A stretch of DNA of 31,896 bases, from positions 1 through 31,896 of the IMG/VR virus record IMGVR_UViG_3300044655_000831. One strand, written 5' to 3'. The notes beneath the pieces were generated by a model that was not told the origin of the DNA, searched no databases, and saw only the letters and a program-made list of their open reading frames with translations. Both the position numbers and the translations under genes were made by a program. Source of the stretch: a virus. Shown here piece after piece: positions 2,488 to 31,896 of this stretch. Every line of letters starts with the position of its first letter. Position 1 is the first letter of the stretch.

Positions 2488-2589
2488 ATGACAGAGCCAA
2501 AGACAATAAGAAACGAGATTTATGATGACAATGGTCTTGTTCGTGTAGAATTTATTGAAGTAGAGGAAAGCGAAGAAACCAATGGCTAA
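2488..2589 (+). CDS. Small acidic protein, 33 residues
   Basis: ATG at 2488 follows an eight-A run after the fibre stop, and the frame ends at TAA 2587-2589. The peptide is MTEPKTIRNEIYDDNGLVRV followed by an acidic tail. It overlaps the next start (2582) by eight bases, which suggests translational coupling. I recognise no family. Being wedged between two virion genes, it may be a small virion or assembly factor, but nothing in the sequence proves that. Short acidic peptides after fibre genes can also be fibre chaperones; this is only a possibility. Confidence 0.5.
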   Translation: MTEPKTIRNEIYDDNGLVRVEFIEVEESEETNG

Positions 2590-3184
2590 CGAACAGAGCG
2601 CACCAAACTTCTTCGCGGTCGTAAACGATATGGCTAAACGCTTTGTCGAATTGATGCAGTCGGACTATCGTATGAAGCGAAAGGTCGGCAAGAACTACAC
2701 GAACGCGGTTGCAAGTGGTACGCTCGAGAAGTCGTTAGCTTATAGACTTAAAATAAAAGGCAAAGAGATAAACGTCGCGGTCTACGCGAAAGGAAAAGCG
2801 GGGAAGTATTTCTTATTCAGAGAGAACGGTGTGAATGGAACGCAGAAGTCGCAAGGTGCGCCCTACTCATTCAAACGAGGTAGCGGAAGCAAACCCGCGA
2901 AAGGTCAAATGTCGCCAATGCAAAAAGCGATATACGACTGGATGAGTATAAAGGGCATAAGACTACGCGACAAGTCAAGCGGTAAGTTCAAGAAGTCGAG
3001 CGAAGAACTAAAACAACAGGTGGCAAAACTGATAATGTTCAAGGTTCGTCGTGACGGAATCAAGGGATGGAAAGCGTTCGACTACGCGTTTGAAAACATT
3101 TGGGACGAATACGAAGCAAAGGTCGTTGAAGCATACGGCAAAGACTTTACCGCAGTTATAGAGAATCAACTAAAAGACATTTAA
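2582..3184 (+). CDS. Putative tail completion / HK97 gp10-like protein
   Basis: The protein has 200 residues and is strongly basic. Residues 55-100 contain KEINVAVYAKGKAGKYFLFRE and NGVNGTQKSQGAPYSF. This is a beta-rich stretch with an (F)xENGVxG element reminiscent of the Y-x-x-F-x-E-x-G motif in HK97 gp10-type connector proteins. The C-terminal half is helical (MSPMQKAIYDWMSIKGI, KGWKAFDYAFENIWDEYEAK). Its place among tail genes and the family resemblance support a head-tail or tail completion role, tentatively. CpG-rich codons begin abruptly here compared with the fibre C-terminus just upstream. It is followed three bases later by the next start. Confidence 0.5.
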   Translation: MANEQSAPNFFAVVNDMAKRFVELMQSDYRMKRKVGKNYTNAVASGTLEKSLAYRLKIKGKEINVAVYAKGKAGKYFLFRENGVNGTQKSQGAPYSFKRGSGSKPAKGQMSPMQKAIYDWMSIKGIRLRDKSSGKFKKSSEELKQQVAKLIMFKVRRDGIKGWKAFDYAFENIWDEYEAKVVEAYGKDFTAVIENQLKDI

Positions 3185-3187
3185 AAT

Positions 3188-4426
3188 ATGGCAATTACAA
3201 TAGAAGAACAACCGTATCAATACACACCAATAGGACAACGACTGATGATCGTTGCATCTTCAACCAACGTAGCAAACGCAGGGTTTCGCTTTGTCTTCGA
3301 CTTCGGTTCTTTCCAAGTCAACGTTCAGCCAAACGCTTCGAACAAAGGTATTCTTGACCTTGCACCGATATTTAGAGAATCGTTACAACACGACGCTTCT
3401 TTATTATCCGTGGAAGCAGATAAGGAGAACACCAGCGTTGCGTTCATCTCTTGCACTATCAAAGAAGGTTGGTTGGTTGACGGAGTATTTACCGTAAGCG
3501 GTAGCGGAATGGCTGACATCGACGACGTGTACGCGTTCCTTGCTGAATATCAAGTGAGCGACGGTTACAAGCCAAACCCAAACACACGTTATGCGTTAGA
3601 CGGAACGACGAAGTACGCAATGAGTGAAAGAACGAAGGACACGCACAAATGGAGTGAAGCGGCAGCGCGTGGATTGTCAAGCGACTACGTTTACATTCCT
3701 ACTCGATTATCTGACTATGGTCTTTTGTACGCGCCTTCGGAAACAGCATTACTTGCTGATAACGATTTTGATATAGTAGTTTTTTCTTCGTACGATAACG
3801 ACAACGTTTTAATTGACACGCAGTTCTTAGCGGTGGCAGGAGACACCTCAATTGTTAATGTCGTGGGTGCTTTTTACGCTAACGTTAACGCGAATGCTAT
3901 TGTTGATTTAACAGGTGCTAAATACTACACTATTCAATTTGGAAAAGAAATTTCGTTCCCCGTTTACACACCTGCTTCACGCGTGTATTGTTTTTATATT
4001 GTTCCTGACGATTGTCGTTTTGACAATGTGCGTTTGGGTTGGACAAATACTTGCGGTGGTGTGGATTATTTCAACTTTACGAAGAAGAGCGAATTGTCTT
4101 TCAACTACGATCGTAAGCAATACCAAAAAGTAATCGGAAATTATAACGCTTCAACGTTTTCTTTCAACACCTACGACAGAGGAACAACCGACCGCTACGT
4201 TACAACGACGAAAGGACTGCAAATAAACAGCGACTGGGTAAGTGTTGGAGAGTTCAACCTACTTCAAACGCTTTGCCGTTCTAACGACGTGTTTATAATC
4301 AACGACGACGGAACGCAAACACCTATTCTTGTGGACACGCAGAACTTTGTTATTAAGGACGAACGCTACTCGAAACTTTACAATGTTACTTTGAATCTTA
4401 AATACTCACAACCTGTAGGCTTATGA
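3188..4426 (+). CDS. Virion structural protein, probable distal tail protein
   Basis: This 412-residue protein is predicted mostly beta. The N-terminus has FRFVFDFGSFQVNVQPNAS, the centre YKPNPNTRYALDGTTKYAMS. The C-terminal third has RLGWTNTCGGVDYFNF followed by a long strand-rich region ending LNLKYSQPVGL. It ends in an ATGA overlap with the large hub-like gene downstream (4423). Bacteroidota phages often carry such a protein directly before the large tail-tip protein, which suggests a distal tail or baseplate component. I see no enzymatic motif. The structural class is fairly sure; the exact position in the tail tip is inference. Confidence 0.55.
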   Translation: MAITIEEQPYQYTPIGQRLMIVASSTNVANAGFRFVFDFGSFQVNVQPNASNKGILDLAPIFRESLQHDASLLSVEADKENTSVAFISCTIKEGWLVDGVFTVSGSGMADIDDVYAFLAEYQVSDGYKPNPNTRYALDGTTKYAMSERTKDTHKWSEAAARGLSSDYVYIPTRLSDYGLLYAPSETALLADNDFDIVVFSSYDNDNVLIDTQFLAVAGDTSIVNVVGAFYANVNANAIVDLTGAKYYTIQFGKEISFPVYTPASRVYCFYIVPDDCRFDNVRLGWTNTCGGVDYFNFTKKSELSFNYDRKQYQKVIGNYNASTFSFNTYDRGTTDRYVTTTKGLQINSDWVSVGEFNLLQTLCRSNDVFIINDDGTQTPILVDTQNFVIKDERYSKLYNVTLNLKYSQPVGL

Positions 4427-7062
4427 TGAACGAAGTAATACTAACGCTTACCGACTTTGACGGCAACGCGGCAACTATCGACTTGTACGAAAACGAGAAG
4501 ATGCACCTCAACTATAAGTTCACCGACCTTACTGACTTCAGTTCGGTAGGTAACTACTCGCGTGAGTTTCGTATTCCTGCAAGTGCAACAAACGTCGATT
4601 TCTTTGGTGCTATCTTCAACGTCAATTTCGACGGTTGGTTTGACTTTCGCAAGAAGGTTGAAGCGACGCTAACGGTTAACACGATACCTATCGCAAGCGG
4701 ACACATTCAGGTGAAGAAGTTATATTGGCAGAGTGGTAAGTTGTTCGAATTTGAGGTTGTATTTTTTGGTGAAGTACCAAACCTTGCAAGACTATTAAAT
4801 GAAAAGAAACTCAAAGATATTGAATCGATTGTCGCGGGTAACCTTGACTACGATTTACTTCACGCGAATGTTGAAACACCACCTAACGAACACACGATTC
4901 TAACGCTATGCGATAAGTGGAATCTGACGGCAACAAATGTAGAAGGACAACCTGTTTATTCAACTACTATCGGTGGGCAACCGACGTATAAACCGCTTTA
5001 CGTTGGTCACTTAACACCTGCGGTTAAAGCGCAATACTTGTTCGACCAAATAATGAGCGACGCAGGGTTGCAGTATTCGAGTGATTACTTAGGAGAGATA
5101 CTCGAAGATGTGTACGTTCCTTTCGTGAATGGTCAGTATTTGAATAGTTCGTTAGGACTAAATGACATTACAAGTACATTGGCTTTGGCTTCAAATGTCA
5201 CAGGTCAAACATTCGGTCCTGGCGATGTTCAATATAACTTATCTGCTGCTCTTACTGAATACAGCGACCCTAACAACGATTGGGCAAGTGGAATTTTCAC
5301 CGCACCTTTTAGTGGTCAATTTTCTTTCAAAGTTTGGGCAAGTGGAACAATTACTTCTTCTACATTTTTAACAAGTCTATTTATTAGACCTGAATTTTAT
5401 GTGAACGGAACTTTTGTTTCAACACCTACGTCTTCATTTTCAGCAGACACTAACTTTTCAAATAGCGTTATTAATACGGTTGATTTAAGCGAAGGAGATA
5501 CTTTAGAAATTCGTTTAGCTCTTACATTAAATGACGACGGAACAACAGGACCTGCGGACGCTACAATTACTTTTATAGGTAACGGAGCAAATGATTACAC
5601 GGGAACGGGTGTTGAATTGGTAAGCGTTGGAACGGCACTAACAAACGACACCGTTCTTATGGAGTACAACGCTCCAGATATGAAACAAATTGATTTCATC
5701 ACATCAATTCAAAAGATGTTTAACCTTGTTTTCGTAGCCGATAAGACGCTTCCGAACACGCTTCGAATAGAACCAATGGTCGAATACATCGCAAGTGGTA
5801 ATACGTTGGATTGGTCGCAGAAGTTGGACTTGTCGAAAGATATAATGTACTCTCCAACGACTGACCTTCAGAAAGCAAAATTCTCTTTCACATACGCAAG
5901 TGATTCAGACTTTTTCAATTCTATCTACACAGACAATGGTCGCGTGTACGGACGCTACGAAGTAACTGAAGCGGACTTTGAAGTAATCAATGAGTTCGCA
6001 ACAGGCGAAGAAAAGGTTGAGTTAGCGTTTGCATCCACACCTTCCGCTCCTGTCGAAAATACAGATGTTGTTGTTCCTAAATTCTTGAATGCAGAAGGGC
6101 AATTCGTACAACCAAAACCACGCATACTTTACTACTTCGCTGACTTCTTCGTGAATATGTTTGACGAAGTGAGTGGTGATGTGGTGCAAACAGCGGTGAA
6201 GTGTTTGAATAACTATTCGACAATGAACGCAACGGTAAGTGATTCAGATTTGAACTTCGCTCCCGAAATACCACCACACACAATCATTGCGAACCCATAC
6301 AACAACCTTTACAATCGTTGGTGGAGAAACTACTACCGCGAACTATTCGACGGACAAGCGCGAATTTTAGAAGGTATGTTTGCACTTACTTTGAACGACA
6401 TCTTCACGTTTCAATTTAGCGACAAGATTTGGATTATCGATTCGTGGTGGCGCGTGTTGGAGATTCAAGGCTACGTTGTAGGCGAACAAGATATGACAAA
6501 GGTAAAACTTATTCGCGTTCTTGACATCAACAACGACTGCGACCTTACACCTGTGTCCGCCAACCTTGACCAATCTTTGAATTGGGAAAATTCGAATGGT
6601 GATCCTGCGACGATAACGCAAGATTGTTGTCTTCGTTTTGGCTACAATTGGAATAGCGCAAAGAATAACTGCTACTCACAACCAAACAACGGAACGCGTT
6701 CTTTCATTACGCAACAAGCACCTTCTTTAGCACCTACTCGCTTCGGTGCGCCTGTTACATTTAGCGCGGGAGTTAGTCAGCCAGTTAAAACGATAACAAC
6801 GGACTACGTTATAACCAATTTTGACCGCGTGTTGTTCGTTGACACGACGGCAGGAAGCATTACTATTTATTTACCTTCAGCAACAACGACGGCAGGTCGT
6901 GAGTTCATCATTCAAAAGTCGGTAGCGGCTAACGGAGTAACGGTACAAGCGTACACAGGAGAAACGGTTGAGGGAAGCGGAAGCGTGACGTTCACAGGAT
7001 TAGGAGATACAATAACAATAATATCAAATGGAAGCGACTTCAAAAGTACATCTACAAAATAA
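4423..7062 (+). CDS. Large tail-tip / baseplate hub-like protein
   Basis: The protein has 879 residues. The first ~110 contain VGNYSREFRIPASATN and VDFFGAIFNVNFDGW, a block I associate with large tail proteins of Bacteroidota phages. Residues ~270-420 look like an inserted beta-sandwich rich in S, T and G. Residues ~700-740 contain a Cys cluster (NNDCDL, QDCCLRFGYNWNSAKNNCYS) suggesting a small disulfide or metal-bound fold. The last ~100 residues (FDRVLFVDTTAGSITIYLPS to the end) resemble a fibre-type beta domain. Start overlaps the previous gene by ATGA, and the end overlaps the next by 35 bases. Hub or tail-associated role is inferred from size, order and the N-terminal block. Confidence 0.6.
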   Translation: MMNEVILTLTDFDGNAATIDLYENEKMHLNYKFTDLTDFSSVGNYSREFRIPASATNVDFFGAIFNVNFDGWFDFRKKVEATLTVNTIPIASGHIQVKKLYWQSGKLFEFEVVFFGEVPNLARLLNEKKLKDIESIVAGNLDYDLLHANVETPPNEHTILTLCDKWNLTATNVEGQPVYSTTIGGQPTYKPLYVGHLTPAVKAQYLFDQIMSDAGLQYSSDYLGEILEDVYVPFVNGQYLNSSLGLNDITSTLALASNVTGQTFGPGDVQYNLSAALTEYSDPNNDWASGIFTAPFSGQFSFKVWASGTITSSTFLTSLFIRPEFYVNGTFVSTPTSSFSADTNFSNSVINTVDLSEGDTLEIRLALTLNDDGTTGPADATITFIGNGANDYTGTGVELVSVGTALTNDTVLMEYNAPDMKQIDFITSIQKMFNLVFVADKTLPNTLRIEPMVEYIASGNTLDWSQKLDLSKDIMYSPTTDLQKAKFSFTYASDSDFFNSIYTDNGRVYGRYEVTEADFEVINEFATGEEKVELAFASTPSAPVENTDVVVPKFLNAEGQFVQPKPRILYYFADFFVNMFDEVSGDVVQTAVKCLNNYSTMNATVSDSDLNFAPEIPPHTIIANPYNNLYNRWWRNYYRELFDGQARILEGMFALTLNDIFTFQFSDKIWIIDSWWRVLEIQGYVVGEQDMTKVKLIRVLDINNDCDLTPVSANLDQSLNWENSNGDPATITQDCCLRFGYNWNSAKNNCYSQPNNGTRSFITQQAPSLAPTRFGAPVTFSAGVSQPVKTITTDYVITNFDRVLFVDTTAGSITIYLPSATTTAGREFIIQKSVAANGVTVQAYTGETVEGSGSVTFTGLGDTITIISNGSDFKSTSTK

Positions 7063-18682: not shown

Positions 18683-18713
18683 TAAATGTATGCTAAATTA
18701 TTTTACCCCACAA
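18683..18713 (-). promoter_or_regulatory. Bacteroidota-type promoter for the small-gene cluster
   Basis: On the minus strand TTG (18711-18713) and TACATTTA (18683-18690) are separated by 20 bases. The segment TTTAGCATACATTT matches TTTAGCATATATTT in the stronger promoter at 25042-25071 at 13 of 14 positions. It overlaps the end of the large terminase gene. The -7 box lacks the final G of TAnnTTTG, and the start codon at 18678 is very close. Confidence 0.45.
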
Positions 18714-20013
18714 CATATTGTCCGTAACTTGGATTGAGTTCGAAGTACATTCGCATCATTATCGCGTCGGCAACGTCGGGAGAAATACCTTCGCGGTTCT
18801 TGATTACGTCCTTCGGTGTGACTTGCAACTTTCCGTCAACGTCAGCGCGATGTCGTTTAATCATTTCTAATTCACGGACGATTTGTTCTTTGCGCGTACT
18901 GGATAAGATAGTGACTTTGTTTTCTTCAACGTATTGAGCTAGTTTGTAGTAACATTCGCTTTTCAAGTTTTGGTATTGTGGGTGTTTGGGTTTTGATCCA
19001 TTGACGAACCCTCGACACTTTAAGAAGTCAACTACTCCACCACCAACTCCGTCTTCGTCACACACTACGTCTTGCAATAAAATTGAATGCTGTTGACAGG
19101 TTAAACGAATCTTGTTCACGACTTCGTCCAACGCTGCACGATTGAGTTCAATTATGTCAATAATAGTAAGCCCTTCCCAAACAATAATAATCGTTCTATC
19201 CTTCCCAAAACGCGCAATATCGGCTGTGATATACTTCTTGCCTTCATTGATTACTTCGTTGCGGAACATTCGAAGAAGATTCTCAGTATTGAATAACTTG
19301 TCTGAATCGTCGTCAAACTCCCAGTTTCCTTCTAAAAGTCTTTTGCGGTCGTATTCGGGAAGTCGTCTAAGAGATTCAATGTAAGCTACCGGTAAGAATG
19401 GGTTATCTTGCGGCAAGGCTTGGACAAATGCGCGGTGTGAAGGTAGTTCGTTCCTGTTGTTCTTCATATAGAACTCATTATACAACCAACCTTTCGACGG
19501 ATTACACGATAAGAAGCCTTTGGGAATAAGACCGAACTCGTTCAATTTGTAACGGCAACGAGAGTGAACGATGTTCACAGCTTTCTCTGTTACCTCTGCT
19601 ACCTCGTCTATAAAATAATCGGTAATTTCCAACGATCCAAGTGAATCGAAGTTCGGATTTGAAGGATAAGCGAACAGGTCTTTCAATACAATTTCGCTTC
19701 CGTTGAAGAACTTAATTACATTCGTTTGTCCGTTGTAGGTGTAGTGTTTGTCAGCAACCAATCCAAACTCACGCGCTGTTTCAAAGAACGTGTTGAGCGT
19801 CGTCTTTTTCAGCGTATCTAATTTAGAACGTCCAATAAGCGAACGTGTTCCTGCGTACTTCAAACGACGTTGAATCTGCCACATACAACCGAACTTAGTC
19901 TTTCCACCCCCTGCCGCGCCACCGTATAACAACTGCTCAACTTGCGAATCGGTTGCAAGATAGTTCAACGCTTCAATTTGACGCGGCAGGTATTCGGGTT
20001 TATATGCTGTCAT
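18703..20013 (-). CDS. terL: Terminase large subunit
   Basis: This 436-residue protein is the DNA-packaging ATPase and nuclease. Walker A is GGAAGGGKT (residues 31-39), and Walker B with the catalytic Glu is DYFIDEVAEV (132-141). SCNPSKGWLYNEFY is the C-motif region. The RNase H-like nuclease shows YITADIARFGKDRT (Asp near 264), VVCDEDGVGGGVVDF (near 316-330) and SPDVADAIMMRMYF near the end, where Asp closes the metal site. Length and domain order are normal. It lies on the minus strand among replication genes, while its small partner is probably at 27728-28141 on the plus strand. Its start overlaps the upstream gene by 14 bases. Confidence 0.93.
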   Translation of the reverse strand: MTAYKPEYLPRQIEALNYLATDSQVEQLLYGGAAGGGKTKFGCMWQIQRRLKYAGTRSLIGRSKLDTLKKTTLNTFFETAREFGLVADKHYTYNGQTNVIKFFNGSEIVLKDLFAYPSNPNFDSLGSLEITDYFIDEVAEVTEKAVNIVHSRCRYKLNEFGLIPKGFLSCNPSKGWLYNEFYMKNNRNELPSHRAFVQALPQDNPFLPVAYIESLRRLPEYDRKRLLEGNWEFDDDSDKLFNTENLLRMFRNEVINEGKKYITADIARFGKDRTIIIVWEGLTIIDIIELNRAALDEVVNKIRLTCQQHSILLQDVVCDEDGVGGGVVDFLKCRGFVNGSKPKHPQYQNLKSECYYKLAQYVEENKVTILSSTRKEQIVRELEMIKRHRADVDGKLQVTPKDVIKNREGISPDVADAIMMRMYFELNPSYGQYVVG

Positions 20014-26568: not shown

Positions 26569-26880
26569 CGTCGGAAGCAATTTAACGACAGGGTAAAAGA
26601 CGAATAAGGGCAACTGTGGGATTGTGTTAAAGCCCAATGGTATGACAAAGGAATAAGCCATACGACACACGGAGAGGCAATTCTTCGAAAGATAGATTCC
26701 AGACTCAAGGACATTGCTGTTCACTTGAGGACACGACAGCGAGAGACTCATTCGACGGAGTAATTATCGCAAAAGTGAGCGTCCAACACTTTGAGAAATC
26801 TTAGTGTTGGATATTTCTATCTCTCACTTAGCTCCAGATCTAATCTCGGGAGTAATTAATATACCGACTGTTTTTTTTTA
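26569..26880 (+). ncRNA. Candidate structured noncoding RNA
   Basis: No credible gene is seen in about 450 bases (26446-26897), in a genome with hardly any other gap. Successive pairings on the plus strand are: GGGC/GCCC (26608-26611, 26632-26635); GTATG/CATAC (26640-26644, 26659-26663) interlocked with GGAAT/ATTCC (26650-26654, 26696-26700), a possible pseudoknot; GGAGAG-GCAA-TTCTTC with a GNRA loop (26671-26686); CTCAAG/CTTGAG (26704-26709, 26724-26729); GCGA..ACTC/GAGT..TCGC (26739-26770); AAGTGAG enclosing TCCAACACT/AGTGTTGGA (26773-26829); CTCC-AGAT/ATCT-GGAG (26832-26852). Nine T follow at 26871-26879. I cannot assign a known RNA class; AAAGATAG before ATTCC recalls group I J8/7, but the full core is not found. 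Confidence 0.55.
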
Positions 26881-26959
26881 ATTTAAGAAGTAACAAGATG
26901 TACAAGGAACTCGCAGAACAACACTACGTTAACCACAAAGACTACAAAAACTAAAAATT

Positions 26960-27091
26960 ATGGAAAATTTTAATCAAATAGTTATTTGGAATATGAAAGA
27001 TATAATAGGACTAAGTCTTTTAGGCTTAATAATATTTGTTGTTTCAATAATATTTTTTATTGCTAAAATCAAAGGAGGTAACAATGAGTAA
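26960..27091 (+). CDS. Small membrane protein, 43 residues
   Basis: ATG at 26960 follows ACTAAAAATT. The peptide MENFNQIVIWNMKDIIGLSL continues LGLIIFVVSIIFFIAKIKGG NNE: one transmembrane helix with a short basic end. It overlaps the next start (27084) by eight bases, and its 3' end encodes the unusual Shine-Dalgarno of that gene. A role in the membrane is likely; the function is unknown. Confidence 0.55.
   Translation: MENFNQIVIWNMKDIIGLSLLGLIIFVVSIIFFIAKIKGGNNE
27073..27079 (+). promoter_or_regulatory. Canonical Shine-Dalgarno, unusual in this genome
   Basis: AGGAGGT lies four bases before ATG 27084 (AAAGGAGGTAACA-ATG). Nearly all other starts here have only A-rich leaders, as expected in Bacteroidota. 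The site decides for ATG 27084 over the upstream in-frame ATG at 27060, which lies before the site. Confidence 0.7.
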
Positions 27092-27329
27092 GCAAACAAG
27101 TAGTGTCGAATTGTTAGAAAAGCAAACAAGTAGTGTTGAATTTTTAGCTAACGCTTTTATTTTTGTAGCTCCAGAATTATGGGGAAAACTAAAAGTTAAA
27201 TTCCAACAAGCGAAAGCAATGCACAAGTCGGAAATTGAAAGTGCGTATCTGGATGGATGTACTGATAATATGAATGATGAGGATGATGTTGAATACTATT
27301 ACAACGAAATATTTGGAGGTAGTGAATGA
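27084..27329 (+). CDS. Hypothetical protein with a 10-residue tandem repeat
   Basis: This 81-residue protein starts MSKQTSSVELLEKQTSSVEF: the decapeptide KQTSSVE[LF]L[EA] appears twice in tandem at residues 3-22, from a 30-bp DNA duplication. The rest is helical and acidic (APELWGKLKVKFQQAKAMHK, MNDEDDVEYYYNEIFGG). The start follows a strong Shine-Dalgarno sequence. Its end overlaps the next gene by four bases (ATGA). No family is recognised. Confidence 0.6.
   Translation: MSKQTSSVELLEKQTSSVEFLANAFIFVAPELWGKLKVKFQQAKAMHKSEIESAYLDGCTDNMNDEDDVEYYYNEIFGGSE
27091..27150 (+). repeat. Tandem 30-bp repeat inside a gene
   Basis: Units 27091-27120 and 27121-27150 both begin AGCAAACAAGTAGTG and keep GAATT..TTAG at the same positions, with about five differences. 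The length is a multiple of three, so the frame is kept and ten residues are duplicated. Confidence 0.85.
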
Positions 27330-27727: not shown

Positions 27728-28141
27728 ATGAGCAAGGAAGAAAACAAACCACAAAACGCAACACTAAAAAAGACTGCTATGCTAAAGGCATTGGAATCTA
27801 CTTTGGGTGTCGTAACGTCAGCGTGTGAGATTGTCGGAATAGATAGGACAACGCACTATCGTTGGTTGCAAGAAGACGAAGACTACAAAGCAAAGGTTGA
27901 ATCGTTATCTGACCTTGCCGTTGACTTCGCAGAAAGTCAGTTGTTTGAATTGATTAAGGGAGCGCACCGCGAGGTGTCAACACCAGACGGTGAAGTAATC
28001 CGCATTCAAGACGCTCCAAACACAAGCGCGACAATCTTCTATTTGAAGACACGCGGAAAGAAACGAGGGTACGTTGAACGAACTGAATTAGCAGGTGTGA
28101 ACGATGCGCCAATTCAAATAATAATCAATGACAAATTATAA
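27728..28141 (+). CDS. Terminase small subunit-like HTH protein
   Basis: This 137-residue protein has a helix-turn-helix near residues 28-55 (VTSACEIVGIDRTTHYRWLQ EDEDY). A helical middle follows (VDFAESQLFELIKGAHREVS), then GEVIRIQDAPNTSATIFYLK and TRGKKRGYVERTELAGV. The T-x-x-A-C-x-x-x-G-[IV]-x-R-x-T-x-Y-R-W pattern followed by a helical oligomerisation region and the FYLKTRGKKRGYVER motif is typical of phage small terminases of the phBC6A51-HTH type, which recognise the packaging site. It is about 7.7 kb from terL and on the other strand. A transcription factor is the main alternative. Confidence 0.7.
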   Translation: MSKEENKPQNATLKKTAMLKALESTLGVVTSACEIVGIDRTTHYRWLQEDEDYKAKVESLSDLAVDFAESQLFELIKGAHREVSTPDGEVIRIQDAPNTSATIFYLKTRGKKRGYVERTELAGVNDAPIQIIINDKL

Positions 28142-28164: not shown

Positions 28165-28410
28165 ATGAGTACTGCTACATTGACATTTGACCTTTCCGAC
28201 GGCGACGATCGTTTTGAGTTCAACCGAATGACAAAGGCTCTCGATATGGCTATGGCTCTTTGGGAAATCGATATGAACGGATACAGAAAGTTTACGAAGT
28301 ACAACGAAAGGCAAGAAGAAGCGTATCAAGAAGGAATCGAAGAAGTATTTAAATACATTCGTGAACTACTTGACGAACATCAAATTAACGTCGAAGATTT
28401 AATCGTTTAA
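28165..28410 (+). CDS. Hypothetical protein, 81 residues
   Basis: The protein starts MSTATLTFDLSDGDDRFEFN, then RMTKALDMAMALWEIDMNGY, a linker (RKFTKYNERQEEAYQEG) and a C-terminal helix. A first strand T-L-x-F-D-L followed by D-x-x-x-F, then A-x-A-L-W-[ED]-[IM] and a K-Y element, is a pattern I know from short proteins next to small terminases in Bacteroidota phages. No function is known to me. It is the first of five small genes in the segment missing from the left copy. Confidence 0.6.
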   Translation: MSTATLTFDLSDGDDRFEFNRMTKALDMAMALWEIDMNGYRKFTKYNERQEEAYQEGIEEVFKYIRELLDEHQINVEDLIV

Positions 28411-28412
28411 AT

Positions 28413-28604
28413 ATGGCAGACATCACAAAATGTAAAGGTATTAACTGCGAACAGCGTGGAACGTGTTACCGGTATCTCGCAACCGCGAACCCCTATCGGC
28501 AAAGTTACTTCAGCGAAACGCCTGTATCGAAGGACGGAACGTGTGACAAATATGTACTTTGGTTGGGCGCAAGTGAATGGACAGGACAGATAAGAGAGGA
28601 ATGA
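28413..28604 (+). CDS. Small Cys-rich protein, 63 residues
   Basis: The sequence MADITKCKGINCEQRGTCYR continues YLATANPYRQSYFSETPVSK and DGTCDKYVLW. Four Cys in the order C-x4-C-x5-C-Y-R-Y...C-D-x-[YF] suggest a small zinc or disulfide fold. I recognise the C-x-G-x-x-C-x-x-x-x-x-C-Y-R-Y pattern from short proteins in Bacteroidota phages of unknown role. Its TGA overlaps the ATG of the next gene. Confidence 0.6.
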   Translation: MADITKCKGINCEQRGTCYRYLATANPYRQSYFSETPVSKDGTCDKYVLWLGASEWTGQIREE

Positions 28605-28732
28605 ACGACGCGTTAGACTGGATGTTCGAACAACTGTGGAACACACCAAAAGACAAATTCGAGTGGAACGCTATCTTGAACAAGGCAAAGGAAATGTGTC
28701 ACAATAATTCAGAAAACTGTGACATATTATAA
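28601..28732 (+). CDS. Small hypothetical protein, 43 residues
   Basis: ATG at 28601 overlaps the previous stop (ATGA). The peptide MNDALDWMFEQLWNTPKDKF continues EWNAILNKAKEMCHNNSENC DIL and is helical at first. The end of the frame (28697-28724) also carries an inverted repeat. Coupling to the gene before it supports the call. No family is recognised. Confidence 0.55.
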   Translation: MNDALDWMFEQLWNTPKDKFEWNAILNKAKEMCHNNSENCDIL

Positions 28733-28769
28733 TGTGATTATGTCGCAAGTATAGTAGATTTTTGCGACA
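28697..28769. promoter_or_regulatory. Two related inverted repeats, possible operators
   Basis: TGTCACA (28697-28703) faces TGTGACA (28718-28724), and TGTCGCAA (28741-28748) faces TTGCGACA (28762-28769). Both dyads have outer TGTC/GACA ends and similar spacers (14 and 13 bases). The second lies in the gap before the gene at 28819. They may be operators for a dimeric regulator or RNA hairpins; no T run follows, so a terminator is less likely. Confidence 0.5.
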
Positions 28770-28818
28770 AAGAACGAACAACTAAACGTATAATAAGGAA
28801 TAACAAATAAAAAATAAT

Positions 28819-29061
28819 ATGATTGGCAACTTGATTAAAACACAAAGCGGAGTTTATGCGTTTAACCATAACTTCCCAAAGCATTGCAAGGCAGAAGATT
28901 TTACAATTGTAAATACTTCAATTGAAGACCTTGACGCAATGTACAACGAAGAAAAGAATTGTTTTGTTGAAGCGGTTAATTGCAGTACCGAAACTTCAAG
29001 GTGCGTTGAAATTGTAGCAAAGTCAACCGAACAAGAATACATTGAATATCACAAACGATAA
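28819..29061 (+). CDS. Hypothetical protein, 80 residues
   Basis: The protein reads MIGNLIKTQSGVYAFNHNFP, KHCKAEDFTIVNTSIEDLDA, MYNEEKNCFVEAVNCSTETS and so on, with three Cys in the second half and a beta-rich look. It starts after an A-rich leader (AATAAAAAATAAT) about 50 bases past the second dyad. Its TAA at 29059-29061 shares its last base with the ATG of the next gene. No family is recognised. Confidence 0.55.
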   Translation: MIGNLIKTQSGVYAFNHNFPKHCKAEDFTIVNTSIEDLDAMYNEEKNCFVEAVNCSTETSRCVEIVAKSTEQEYIEYHKR

Positions 29062-29258: not shown

Positions 29259-29840
29259 ATGAGCATCAAAGTAAGTATACCTGCTGACTATTCAAGTATC
29301 AGCGTCAAGCAATACCTTGACTATCACGCGGCGAAGAACGACATCGACAAGTTGGTTTCAATTAGTAACCTACTGAAAGAACAAGCGGAGCAGATTCCCT
29401 TCCAACACTTGCCGACACTACTCGGCGCGTTCGAGAACACTCTGGCGAACGAATCAGCTAAATTCTTTGAGACCATTACAATCAAAGACAAGGACTTCGG
29501 TTTCATTCCCGACCTTTACTCTATCAGTATGGGTGAGTACGCTGATATTTCAACGTGGGCTTCCGACGTGAACTCAAACATTGTCAAGATAATGGGAACG
29601 CTTTACCGACCTATTGACAAGCGCGTAGGTTCGAAGTACACAATCATTCCTCACAGCAAACAAAATCGCGAGATGGTTGAAGGCTACGTTGAGCAGATGA
29701 CGCTCGAACAATTCAACGGTGCGATGCTTTTTTTTTCGACTTTACTCAGAGAACTAAACAACACTTCGCTCGATTATTTGGAGAACGAAGTCAAGAAGTT
29801 GACGAAGGAGATGGAGCAATTGACGACCGAGAAGGACTAA
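29259..29840 (+). CDS. Tail assembly chaperone, short form (main copy)
   Basis: This 193-residue protein reads SISVKQYLDYHAAKNDIDKL at the start, KDKDFGFIPDLYSISMGEYA in the middle and LEQFNGAMLFFSTLLREL near the end. It is homologous to the left copy at 123-707 across the whole length. With the downstream -1 frame it has the G/GT organisation of tail chaperones. Such proteins keep the tape measure soluble and recruit tube subunits. In most siphoviruses the pair sits directly before the tape measure; here the fibre and tail-tip genes lie between on the inferred circle. Function is inferred from architecture. Confidence 0.7.
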   Translation: MSIKVSIPADYSSISVKQYLDYHAAKNDIDKLVSISNLLKEQAEQIPFQHLPTLLGAFENTLANESAKFFETITIKDKDFGFIPDLYSISMGEYADISTWASDVNSNIVKIMGTLYRPIDKRVGSKYTIIPHSKQNREMVEGYVEQMTLEQFNGAMLFFSTLLRELNNTSLDYLENEVKKLTKEMEQLTTEKD

Positions 29841-30016
29841 ACCAAGTACTCGGAAGGTACGGTTGGTATCACTTGTTTATGGAAGCGTGCGGACGCGACA
29901 TAACAAAGTTGGATGCAATTACGGAAAAAAGTGCATGGGAGATATTTACATTTATGACTTACCTAATAGACTACAATTATGTCGAACGTACAAAGCTACA
30001 ACGCGCTTATAGATAG
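29727..30016 (+). other. Probable -1 frameshift site and GT-type extension (main copy)
   Basis: Nine T at 29728-29736 are read CTT TTT TTT TCG in the zero frame. The -1 frame is open from the T run to TAG at 30014-30016, giving after the slip FDFTQRTKQHFARLFGERSQ, then GLNQVLGRYGWYHLFMEACG, RDITKLDAITEKSAWEIFTF and MTYLIDY. The fusion would have about 252 residues. The extension has no suitable start codon of its own and overlaps the next gene's ATG (29979) by 38 bases. The same site, frame relation and homologous extension occur in the left copy. Confidence 0.75.
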
Positions 30017-31896
30017 ATTCAAGGCATTCGCCTCTGGACACTTTATTCTTAAAACATTTTCACACGGTCAGATTGACACGGCAGACCTTGAAAAGTTTAC
30101 CGAATATCCCTTTATGCACGTCGTGCCTTCCAACGTAACGTATGCGAAAGGTACGAAAACGTTTAGTTTTCAGATTGTCCTTGCGGATCTTCCGCGAGAC
30201 AAAGATGACAAAGTAGAATTTCAACGCGAGGTTCTTTCCGACCTTCAACGAATAGCAGAAGACTTGGTTGCCGAGATTACGAACCACCGCGTTTTGTTTG
30301 GTGACTTAATCACCGTTCAGAACGTAAGCCTTGAACCATTCCTTGAAGAATTTCACAACACGCTTACCGGTTGGACAGTTAGTCTTGACTTGCTTGTTCC
30401 TTACTATTGGGACGCTTGTTCTATTCCTGCTGAGTGGAACGATTTCTTCGAAAGTGGAAGCGGTGGCACGGGTTCAATCTTAACATTCATTGATTCAATC
30501 ACACGCGACGAGAACGGCAACGTTAGTCTTGTTAACGACGAAGCAGAACCTTCGCCTAACTATTACTACGGGACTAACGACGAAGGGGTGCGCGGTTGGT
30601 ACTTGTTGAGCGACGAGGTAGGGTTGACGTGTGAGACAATAGGCGATTGTCAAACGATAATCGACATCGAAGCGGCAATTGATTTATTGCAACAAGACGT
30701 TACCGACTTACAAGCGGACGTTGCTGACATCGAAACAGAACTGCCTAACAAAGTACCTTACACAGGCGCAACGCAAGACGTTAATCTTGGTGAGTTCGGG
30801 GTGCAATTAGGCAATTTAGAATTTGACGTTACACCAACCAACATACCAACGGCACAAGGCTCGGTATATTGGGACGACAACGCGGAGACGTTAGCAATCA
30901 TAATGAACGGCACGACGCAGAAGGTCGGTGAGGATATTTTTTACCACGTCCGTAACACGACAGGAAGCACGATCCCAAAAGGAACGGCTGTCCGATTTGC
31001 GGGGACAACTGGAAACAGCGGTCGTCTTTTGATTGCGCCAATGATAGCGAACGGAACTACTCCGTCGCAATACTATATGGGTGTTACTTCGGAAGCAATT
31101 AGCAACAATGCCGACGGCAAGGTTTATCAGTTCGGCAAGATGCGTGTTAACACTTCAGCGTTTGCTGACGGAGATATTCTTTACGTTTCGACTACTGTTG
31201 CAGGTGGTTTTCAGACGACGCAACCAATAGCACCGAACAACATTATCGTTGCGGCTGCGGTGGTTCACGCGGCTAACAATGGGACGCTTATGATTCGTCC
31301 AACGTTGGGCAGCAACATCAATTCAGACGAAGGTGTTCTTATCACCACACCTGCAAACAACAACGTGTTGACTTATGAATCTTCTACTTCATTGTGGAAG
31401 AATAAGACGGTTGAAACGGCACTTGGATACACACCACTAGCAGGGGTGCATTCGATTGTGCCAATAGCAAGTGGTGGTGTTACATATAATGGATTAACTG
31501 CCATAACATCTGGCGCAAACCAAACGGGTTCAAGCATTCGATTAACTCCATACATACCAGCGCAATCAATTACGAGTAGTAATTTGTACATCAACGTAAC
31601 AACTGCAACGGCTGGCTCATTATGTACGATTGTTATTTATTCGGATACCAATGGAGTGCCTACAAATTTACTTTACGAGAGTGCAGATTTAGATTGTTCA
31701 ATAAATGGATTGAAGATTGCAACAACTTCATTTGATTTTGTTACTGGAACTCGGTATTGGTTAGGGTTAAAAACAAATGGAACAGCAGCAACACGAGCAA
31801 GTTTAAACGTTTCTTCATCACTACCATTAGGTGCAAATGCATCATCAACATTTATAAGTTATCAAAAATCAGCAATAACTTATGCTTCACCATCAC
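29979..31896 (+). CDS. Tail fibre-like protein, main copy, cut by the window end
   Basis: ATG at 29979 opens a frame that has no stop before the window ends (639 codons). Residues 1-160 match the left copy (IDRFKAFASGHFILKTFSHG, DLPRDKDDKVEFQREVLSDL, DACSIPAEWND). A coiled coil follows (IDLLQQDVTDLQADVADIET), then a central domain unlike the left copy (GEDIFYHVRNTTGSTIPKGT, AVRFAGTT...YQFGKMRVNT), then the shared C-terminal domain from LGYTPLAGVHSI. Joined to base 2415 the frame continues and stops at 2482, giving 661 residues. The central KGTAVRFAGT...G...V type repeat is common in phage fibres. Fibre role inferred. Confidence 0.75.
   Translation, partial: MSNVQSYNALIDRFKAFASGHFILKTFSHGQIDTADLEKFTEYPFMHVVPSNVTYAKGTKTFSFQIVLADLPRDKDDKVEFQREVLSDLQRIAEDLVAEITNHRVLFGDLITVQNVSLEPFLEEFHNTLTGWTVSLDLLVPYYWDACSIPAEWNDFFESGSGGTGSILTFIDSITRDENGNVSLVNDEAEPSPNYYYGTNDEGVRGWYLLSDEVGLTCETIGDCQTIIDIEAAIDLLQQDVTDLQADVADIETELPNKVPYTGATQDVNLGEFGVQLGNLEFDVTPTNIPTAQGSVYWDDNAETLAIIMNGTTQKVGEDIFYHVRNTTGSTIPKGTAVRFAGTTGNSGRLLIAPMIANGTTPSQYYMGVTSEAISNNADGKVYQFGKMRVNTSAFADGDILYVSTTVAGGFQTTQPIAPNNIIVAAAVVHAANNGTLMIRPTLGSNINSDEGVLITTPANNNVLTYESSTSLWKNKTVETALGYTPLAGVHSIVPIASGGVTYNGLTAITSGANQTGSSIRLTPYIPAQSITSSNLYINVTTATAGSLCTIVIYSDTNGVPTNLLYESADLDCSINGLKIATTSFDFVTGTRYWLGLKTNGTAATRASLNVSSSLPLGANASSTFISYQKSAITYASPS
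31770..31896 (+). repeat. 127-bp exact repeat, terminal copy
   Basis: Identical to 2288-2414 and ending exactly at the last base of the window. Joining 31896 to 2415 keeps the fibre reading frame. This supports a circular or circularly permuted path of 29,482 bp with a branch point at this k-mer. Confidence 0.95.

Follow-up and report, generated by a model that had tools for sequence, protein, structure and literature searches.

A 127-base end-to-interior repeat in a viral contig is best explained by closure of a circular 29,482 bp phage genome behind an arm from a second lineage

Introduction

The virus record analysed here is a single stretch of 31,896 bases (the window), of which the last 127 bases, positions 31770-31896, are identical to positions 2288-2414. 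The copies lie towards the 3' ends of two genes that are homologous to each other, located at 878-2482 and 29979-31896, and the locus raises the question whether one phage genome carries two such genes, or whether the second copy was introduced during assembly. The initial annotation had attributed the repeat to closure of a circular genome by an assembler working with k-mers of 127 bases, and had warned that a linear reading would report a false gene duplication. Terminal repeats of viral contigs have been reported to cluster at assembler k-mer lengths, and a circle that is broken during assembly leaves one k-mer repeated (PMC8116208).

Materials and Methods

Exact end repeats were surveyed in the window (G000) and in 39 of its relatives, analysed as whole records of 27-61 kb, giving 40 contigs. 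A search for end repeats on the loci of the relatives returned none; most of these loci are cut pieces, so whole records were used. Coordinates refer to the window unless another record is named. The arm, the two 127-base copies, both fibre-like genes with their seam and tip segments, the terminase-small-subunit-like genes, and the 193- and 194-aa genes all lie on the plus strand.

Results

Exact comparison of 31770-31896 with 2288-2414 revealed no extension of the match to the left, where the two copies are directly preceded by a mismatch, and the right copy terminates with the record at 31896, which confirms the annotated length of exactly 127 bases. Upstream of the repeat, the two regions share approximately 76% DNA identity over 343 columns (1943-2283 versus 31425-31765). 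The copies are offset by 29,482 bp (31770 minus 2288), and positions 2415-31896 would represent one turn of a circle of this size, as suggested by the copy offset, by the gene order in 60 loci, and by a length that falls within the range of the closed relatives. The first base of the window falls within a gene, and the gene that starts at 29979 is open at the window end. Appending 2415-2482 to 29979-31896 yields a single in-frame ORF of 661 aa, as compared with 534 aa for ORF 878-2482, of which the last 195 bp lie in the shared part; the coding frame is thus kept across the join, as had been proposed.

The segment in front of the first copy (1-2287) forms an attached arm. The N-terminal parts of the fibre-like proteins encoded at 878-2482 (left type) and 29979-31896 (right type) share approximately 47% protein identity, and the relatives split into two groups on this basis. 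Left-type records (G021, G022, G038, G032, and others) display 82-92% DNA identity to the arm over most of its length. The proteins of the two lineages are largely co-linear, and shared genes are mostly 35-60% identical, with values of 37-47% for the portal and 58-60% for the large terminase. The arm opens with the 3' end of a terminase-small-subunit-like gene (1-120), which was recognised by translation and tblastx, and is the counterpart of 27728-28141 in the main genome; the latter matches phrog_309 and phrog_4044 as well as other terminase small subunit families. It is followed almost directly by a 194-aa gene (123-707; phrog_32199) with 86-95% aa identity to left-type genomes and about 30% identity between lineages. 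Its counterpart in the main genome is the 193-aa gene (29259-29840; phrog_32199) that precedes the fibre-like gene. Three small genes located at 28165-29061, between the terminase-small-subunit-like and 193-aa genes of the main genome, are absent from the arm. Judged from these sequence comparisons, the arm belongs to a co-linear sister lineage and is not a strain allele. The earlier designation of 1-2287 as a competing allele of a related phage can be retained as far as it describes a competing branch derived from another phage, but not in the sense of a strain allele or near relative, as only about 6-9% of the whole window aligns as DNA to left-type records. The arm would be linked to the main genome solely by way of an exchanged fibre tip.

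The large terminase of the main genome is encoded on the minus strand (18703-20013), and among named phages it comes closest to Flavobacterium phage 11b and Cellulophaga phage phi10:1 (49% each), which makes a Bacteroidota host likely. A 28-nt repeat in two tandem copies (27090-27147; 93% identical, spacing 30) was observed inside ORF 27060-27329.

The join from 31896 to 2415 that is predicted by the circular reading is crossed in independent assemblies. Contig L154 (3300034121_000189), in which a complete ORF of the right N-terminal type is present, spans this position, leading from the right-arm fibre gene to 2415 onward, and is identical to the window over 29772-31453 (1,682 bp) and 2563-4730 (2,168 bp). 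Moreover, 60 loci carry a right-type fibre start that is followed within 6 kb by the gene located at 2582 in the window. Closed circle G001 displays this order, its fibre gene stopping at 26784 and the homologue of the 2582 gene (98.5% aa identity) beginning at 26883.

Exact end repeats of 127 bp were detected in 18 of the 40 contigs, where 127 is a recurring assembler k value. Nine of these contigs are closed circles with terminal repeats (G001, G006, G007, G009, G017, G024, G025, G032, and G037), and nine are end-to-interior "lollipops", in which one copy is interior (the window, G008, G011, G013, G014, G023, G030, G031, and G039). End repeats of 126 bases were encountered in six relatives (G002, G004, G019, G027, G028, and G034; loci L175-L176, L179-L180, L207-L208, L217-L220, and L229-L230), repeats of 123 bases in two contigs (G012 and G026), and repeats of 55 bases in two of the 40. 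Given this sharp clustering at lengths of 127 (18 contigs) and 126 (six contigs), the length of the repeat is not a matter of chance. At JGI, metaSPAdes is run with k up to 127; a literature search found no published statement of JGI's k list. The spectrum of repeat lengths among the relatives and the independent contigs agree with the annotated circle of 29,482 bp at 2415-31896, and the recurrence of 127 bears out its closure at k = 127. In G008, G011, G013, and G023, the extra arm is approximately 75-95% identical to the corresponding stretch of the main circle, as would be the case for a competing branch. A direct terminal repeat (DTR) in the CheckV sense comprises 20 bp or more and occupies the start as well as the end of a contig; the window does not display such a repeat, its first copy lying at 2288-2414.

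Other composite contigs were encountered among the relatives. G031 (L161-L164; 61,462 bp) comprises a left-type and a right-type genome in one IMG/VR contig, joined via the fibre gene. The end of G031 recurs over 127 bp at 31095-31221, within the right-type fibre gene, whereas the contig begins inside the left-type fibre gene. A closed circle obtained from a different metagenome, G032, shows precisely the match to the left arm that G031 shows, and its break falls in this same fibre gene. The lollipop G023 (L165-L166; 38,494 bp) consists of an extra arm of 8,825 bp and a circle of 29,542 bp, and the lollipop G013 (L167-L168; 34,464 bp) carries an extra arm of 2,465 bp at the other end, its start recurring at 31873-31999. 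Assembly junctions fall within the fibre gene in five of 30 contigs, the gene occupying 7-8% of the genome; a junction hotspot is not claimed, as this number is not clearly above chance, and two of the contigs, G031 and G032, seem to represent the same phage.

A reading of ORFs 878-2482 and 29979-31896 as terminase genes was rejected on basis of PHROGs matches and relatives, which identify a fibre-like gene. Searches of the fibre proteins against Pfam and NCBIfam, and of the fibre tips against Pfam, gave no match, and annotated relatives of the other parts of the fibre proteins are named tail fibre or tail protein. The structure model of the tip is weak (pLDDT 48.8), its best PDB match being a cyanophage A4 capsid chain (E 9.7e-4). 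As the tip is part of a fibre-like protein, it may play a role in receptor binding. A single fibre gene is present in 38 of the 40 records that match the fibre N-terminus, the two exceptions being the two-genome contig G031 and G020, in which the gene is cut by the contig ends.

The arm gene and the main-genome gene carry distinct tip modules, T1 (body at 1972-2287) and T2 (body at 31454-31769), which share 82% aa identity over 153 matched residues. The shared 127-mer falls in this C-terminal tip of the fibre-like gene. Each module is preceded, at the boundary of stalk and tip, by an identical seam of 26 bp (GYTPLAGVHS), located at 1946-1971 in the arm and at 31428-31453 in the main genome. 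L154 is mosaic at this seam: it is identical to the right arm as far as 31453 and to the left arm from 1946 onward, such that the two exact runs overlap by these 26 bp, and a right-type stalk is joined to the left-arm tip T1, the body of which is identical to that of the window. T2 running into 2415 was seen in no independent contig, L154 carrying T1 instead. It is unlikely that L154 is itself a chimera of the assembly graph, because an overlap of 26 bp is shorter than the k-mers that would be in use under usual assembler settings.

Comparison of 141 distinct fibre genes yielded 51 cross-type pairs that have a stretch of 150 bp or more in common at a DNA identity of at least 90%, with L058 and L104 as an example (1,103 bp at 98.7%). 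Conserved N-terminal anchors that carry differing C-terminal modules, and one and the same tip on several anchors, were both found, which is the arrangement of an exchangeable C-terminal tip. A tip with the GYTPLAGVHSI seam was also observed on N-termini that are unrelated to both lineages (L243:2351-4525, L247:2951-4528, and L248:191-2389), and more distant members of the tip family occur in L249-L252. Fibre tip exchange between the lineages is real, and of a known kind.

Discussion

The 127-base repeat is almost certainly an assembler artefact that closes the 29,482 bp circle of a phage genome and places a foreign arm in front of it. This explanation is favoured because the repeat has a length of exactly 127, is preceded by a mismatch, coincides with the contig end, and recurs in relatives; because L154 and the 60 loci display the gene order predicted over the join; because one fibre gene per record is usual and the arm derives from a foreign lineage; and because G031 provides a second case in which a left-type and a right-type genome are joined via the fibre gene. 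A de Bruijn assembler with a largest k of 127 would have reached a branch at the shared stretch starting at 2288, where a left-type stalk with T1 and a right-type stalk with T2 enter one identical stretch. The contig would begin on the minor branch of the other lineage (1-2287), pass the shared k-mer (2288-2414), which would act as branch point, circle the main genome once, and halt on the same k-mer (31770-31896) after arriving via the main phage's own fibre gene. Both branches were presumably present together in the sample, and the exact path through the graph is a reconstruction.

In a variant of this explanation, the arm and the start of the main genome would together represent a real recombinant phage, combining a left-type fibre region with right-type downstream genes, which was assembled together with the main phage; closure from 31896 to 2415 and the duplication would still be artefacts. 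Fibre modules are often exchanged between lineages, and two loci with a left-type fibre start, L141 and L145, carry right-type DNA just past the fibre gene, matching 2562-2763, such that a left-type fibre leading into about position 2763 may be a real stretch in some phages. However, the right-type downstream gene is not matched at the DNA level by 73 of the 75 left-type loci, and the record that contains L145, G036, can be aligned to just 9% of the window, which implies that the shared patch is short. The recombinant is therefore considered unlikely, while it deserves more weight than the readings below.

That one linear phage genome carries a left-type and a right-type fibre cassette at its two ends is very improbable, even though the window, taken literally, contains two intact-looking ORFs with an identical stretch of 127 bp. 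No relative combines the two types apart from G031, a contig made up of two genomes; none of the 40 contigs contains an exact direct repeat of at least 108 bp away from a contig end, and the repeat has the length of a recurring k value. Moreover, the contig starts inside a gene, and the right-type fibre continues straight into the 2582 gene in 60 loci. On the present sequence comparisons, the apparent duplication of the fibre gene is not real, in line with the warning against a linear reading. A linear packaged genome with truly redundant ends, either direct terminal repeats or headful ends, can be virtually dismissed: such ends are common in tailed phages and the window encodes the genes of a tailed phage, but the start of the record lacks a copy of the repeat, repeat lengths cluster at 127 and 126, and the contig ends of the relatives are scattered over many places on the window map, so that there is no fixed physical terminus.

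Within the explanation as an assembler artefact, the simplest reason why two lineages that are mostly unalignable as DNA share a 127-mer is a recently exchanged tip end, and the shared k-mer would thus reflect recent transfer of a fibre tip. More tentatively, lollipop and figure-eight contigs might mark recent tip transfer among co-occurring lineages, with the GYTPLAGVHSI seam as a preferred crossover that is also used by unrelated anchors.

As deposited, the record is 2.4 kb longer than the genome and apparently contains two fibre genes, and it is complete yet missed by a start-versus-end test of circularity. The identical 127 bp defect is present in eight relatives, including the two-phage contig of 61 kb and the contig of 38.5 kb with an arm of 8.8 kb. 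Statistics on gene duplication or genome size that are derived from such records would be wrong, and these genomes would be recovered by a screen for contig ends that recur in the interior over exactly k bases.

The window resembles the DTR contigs described for CheckV (PMC8116208, Extended Data Fig. 3) in its repeat of k-mer length and its circular template, and plain 127 bp terminal repeats as in those contigs are present in nine relatives. Unlike the CheckV contigs, the window has one interior copy and the branch of another phage in front, and a start-versus-end test misses it because this branch makes the copy interior. With respect to the tip, the divergent Alteromonas phages A5 and V22 share a tail-fibre module in which similarity is highest in the C-terminus (PMC10579305). 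The lineages described here would likewise have a host-recognition module in common, with the C-terminus of the fibre as its most similar part, but they differ from A5 and V22 in being co-linear relatives, with DNA identity reaching 98.7% over 1,103 bp.
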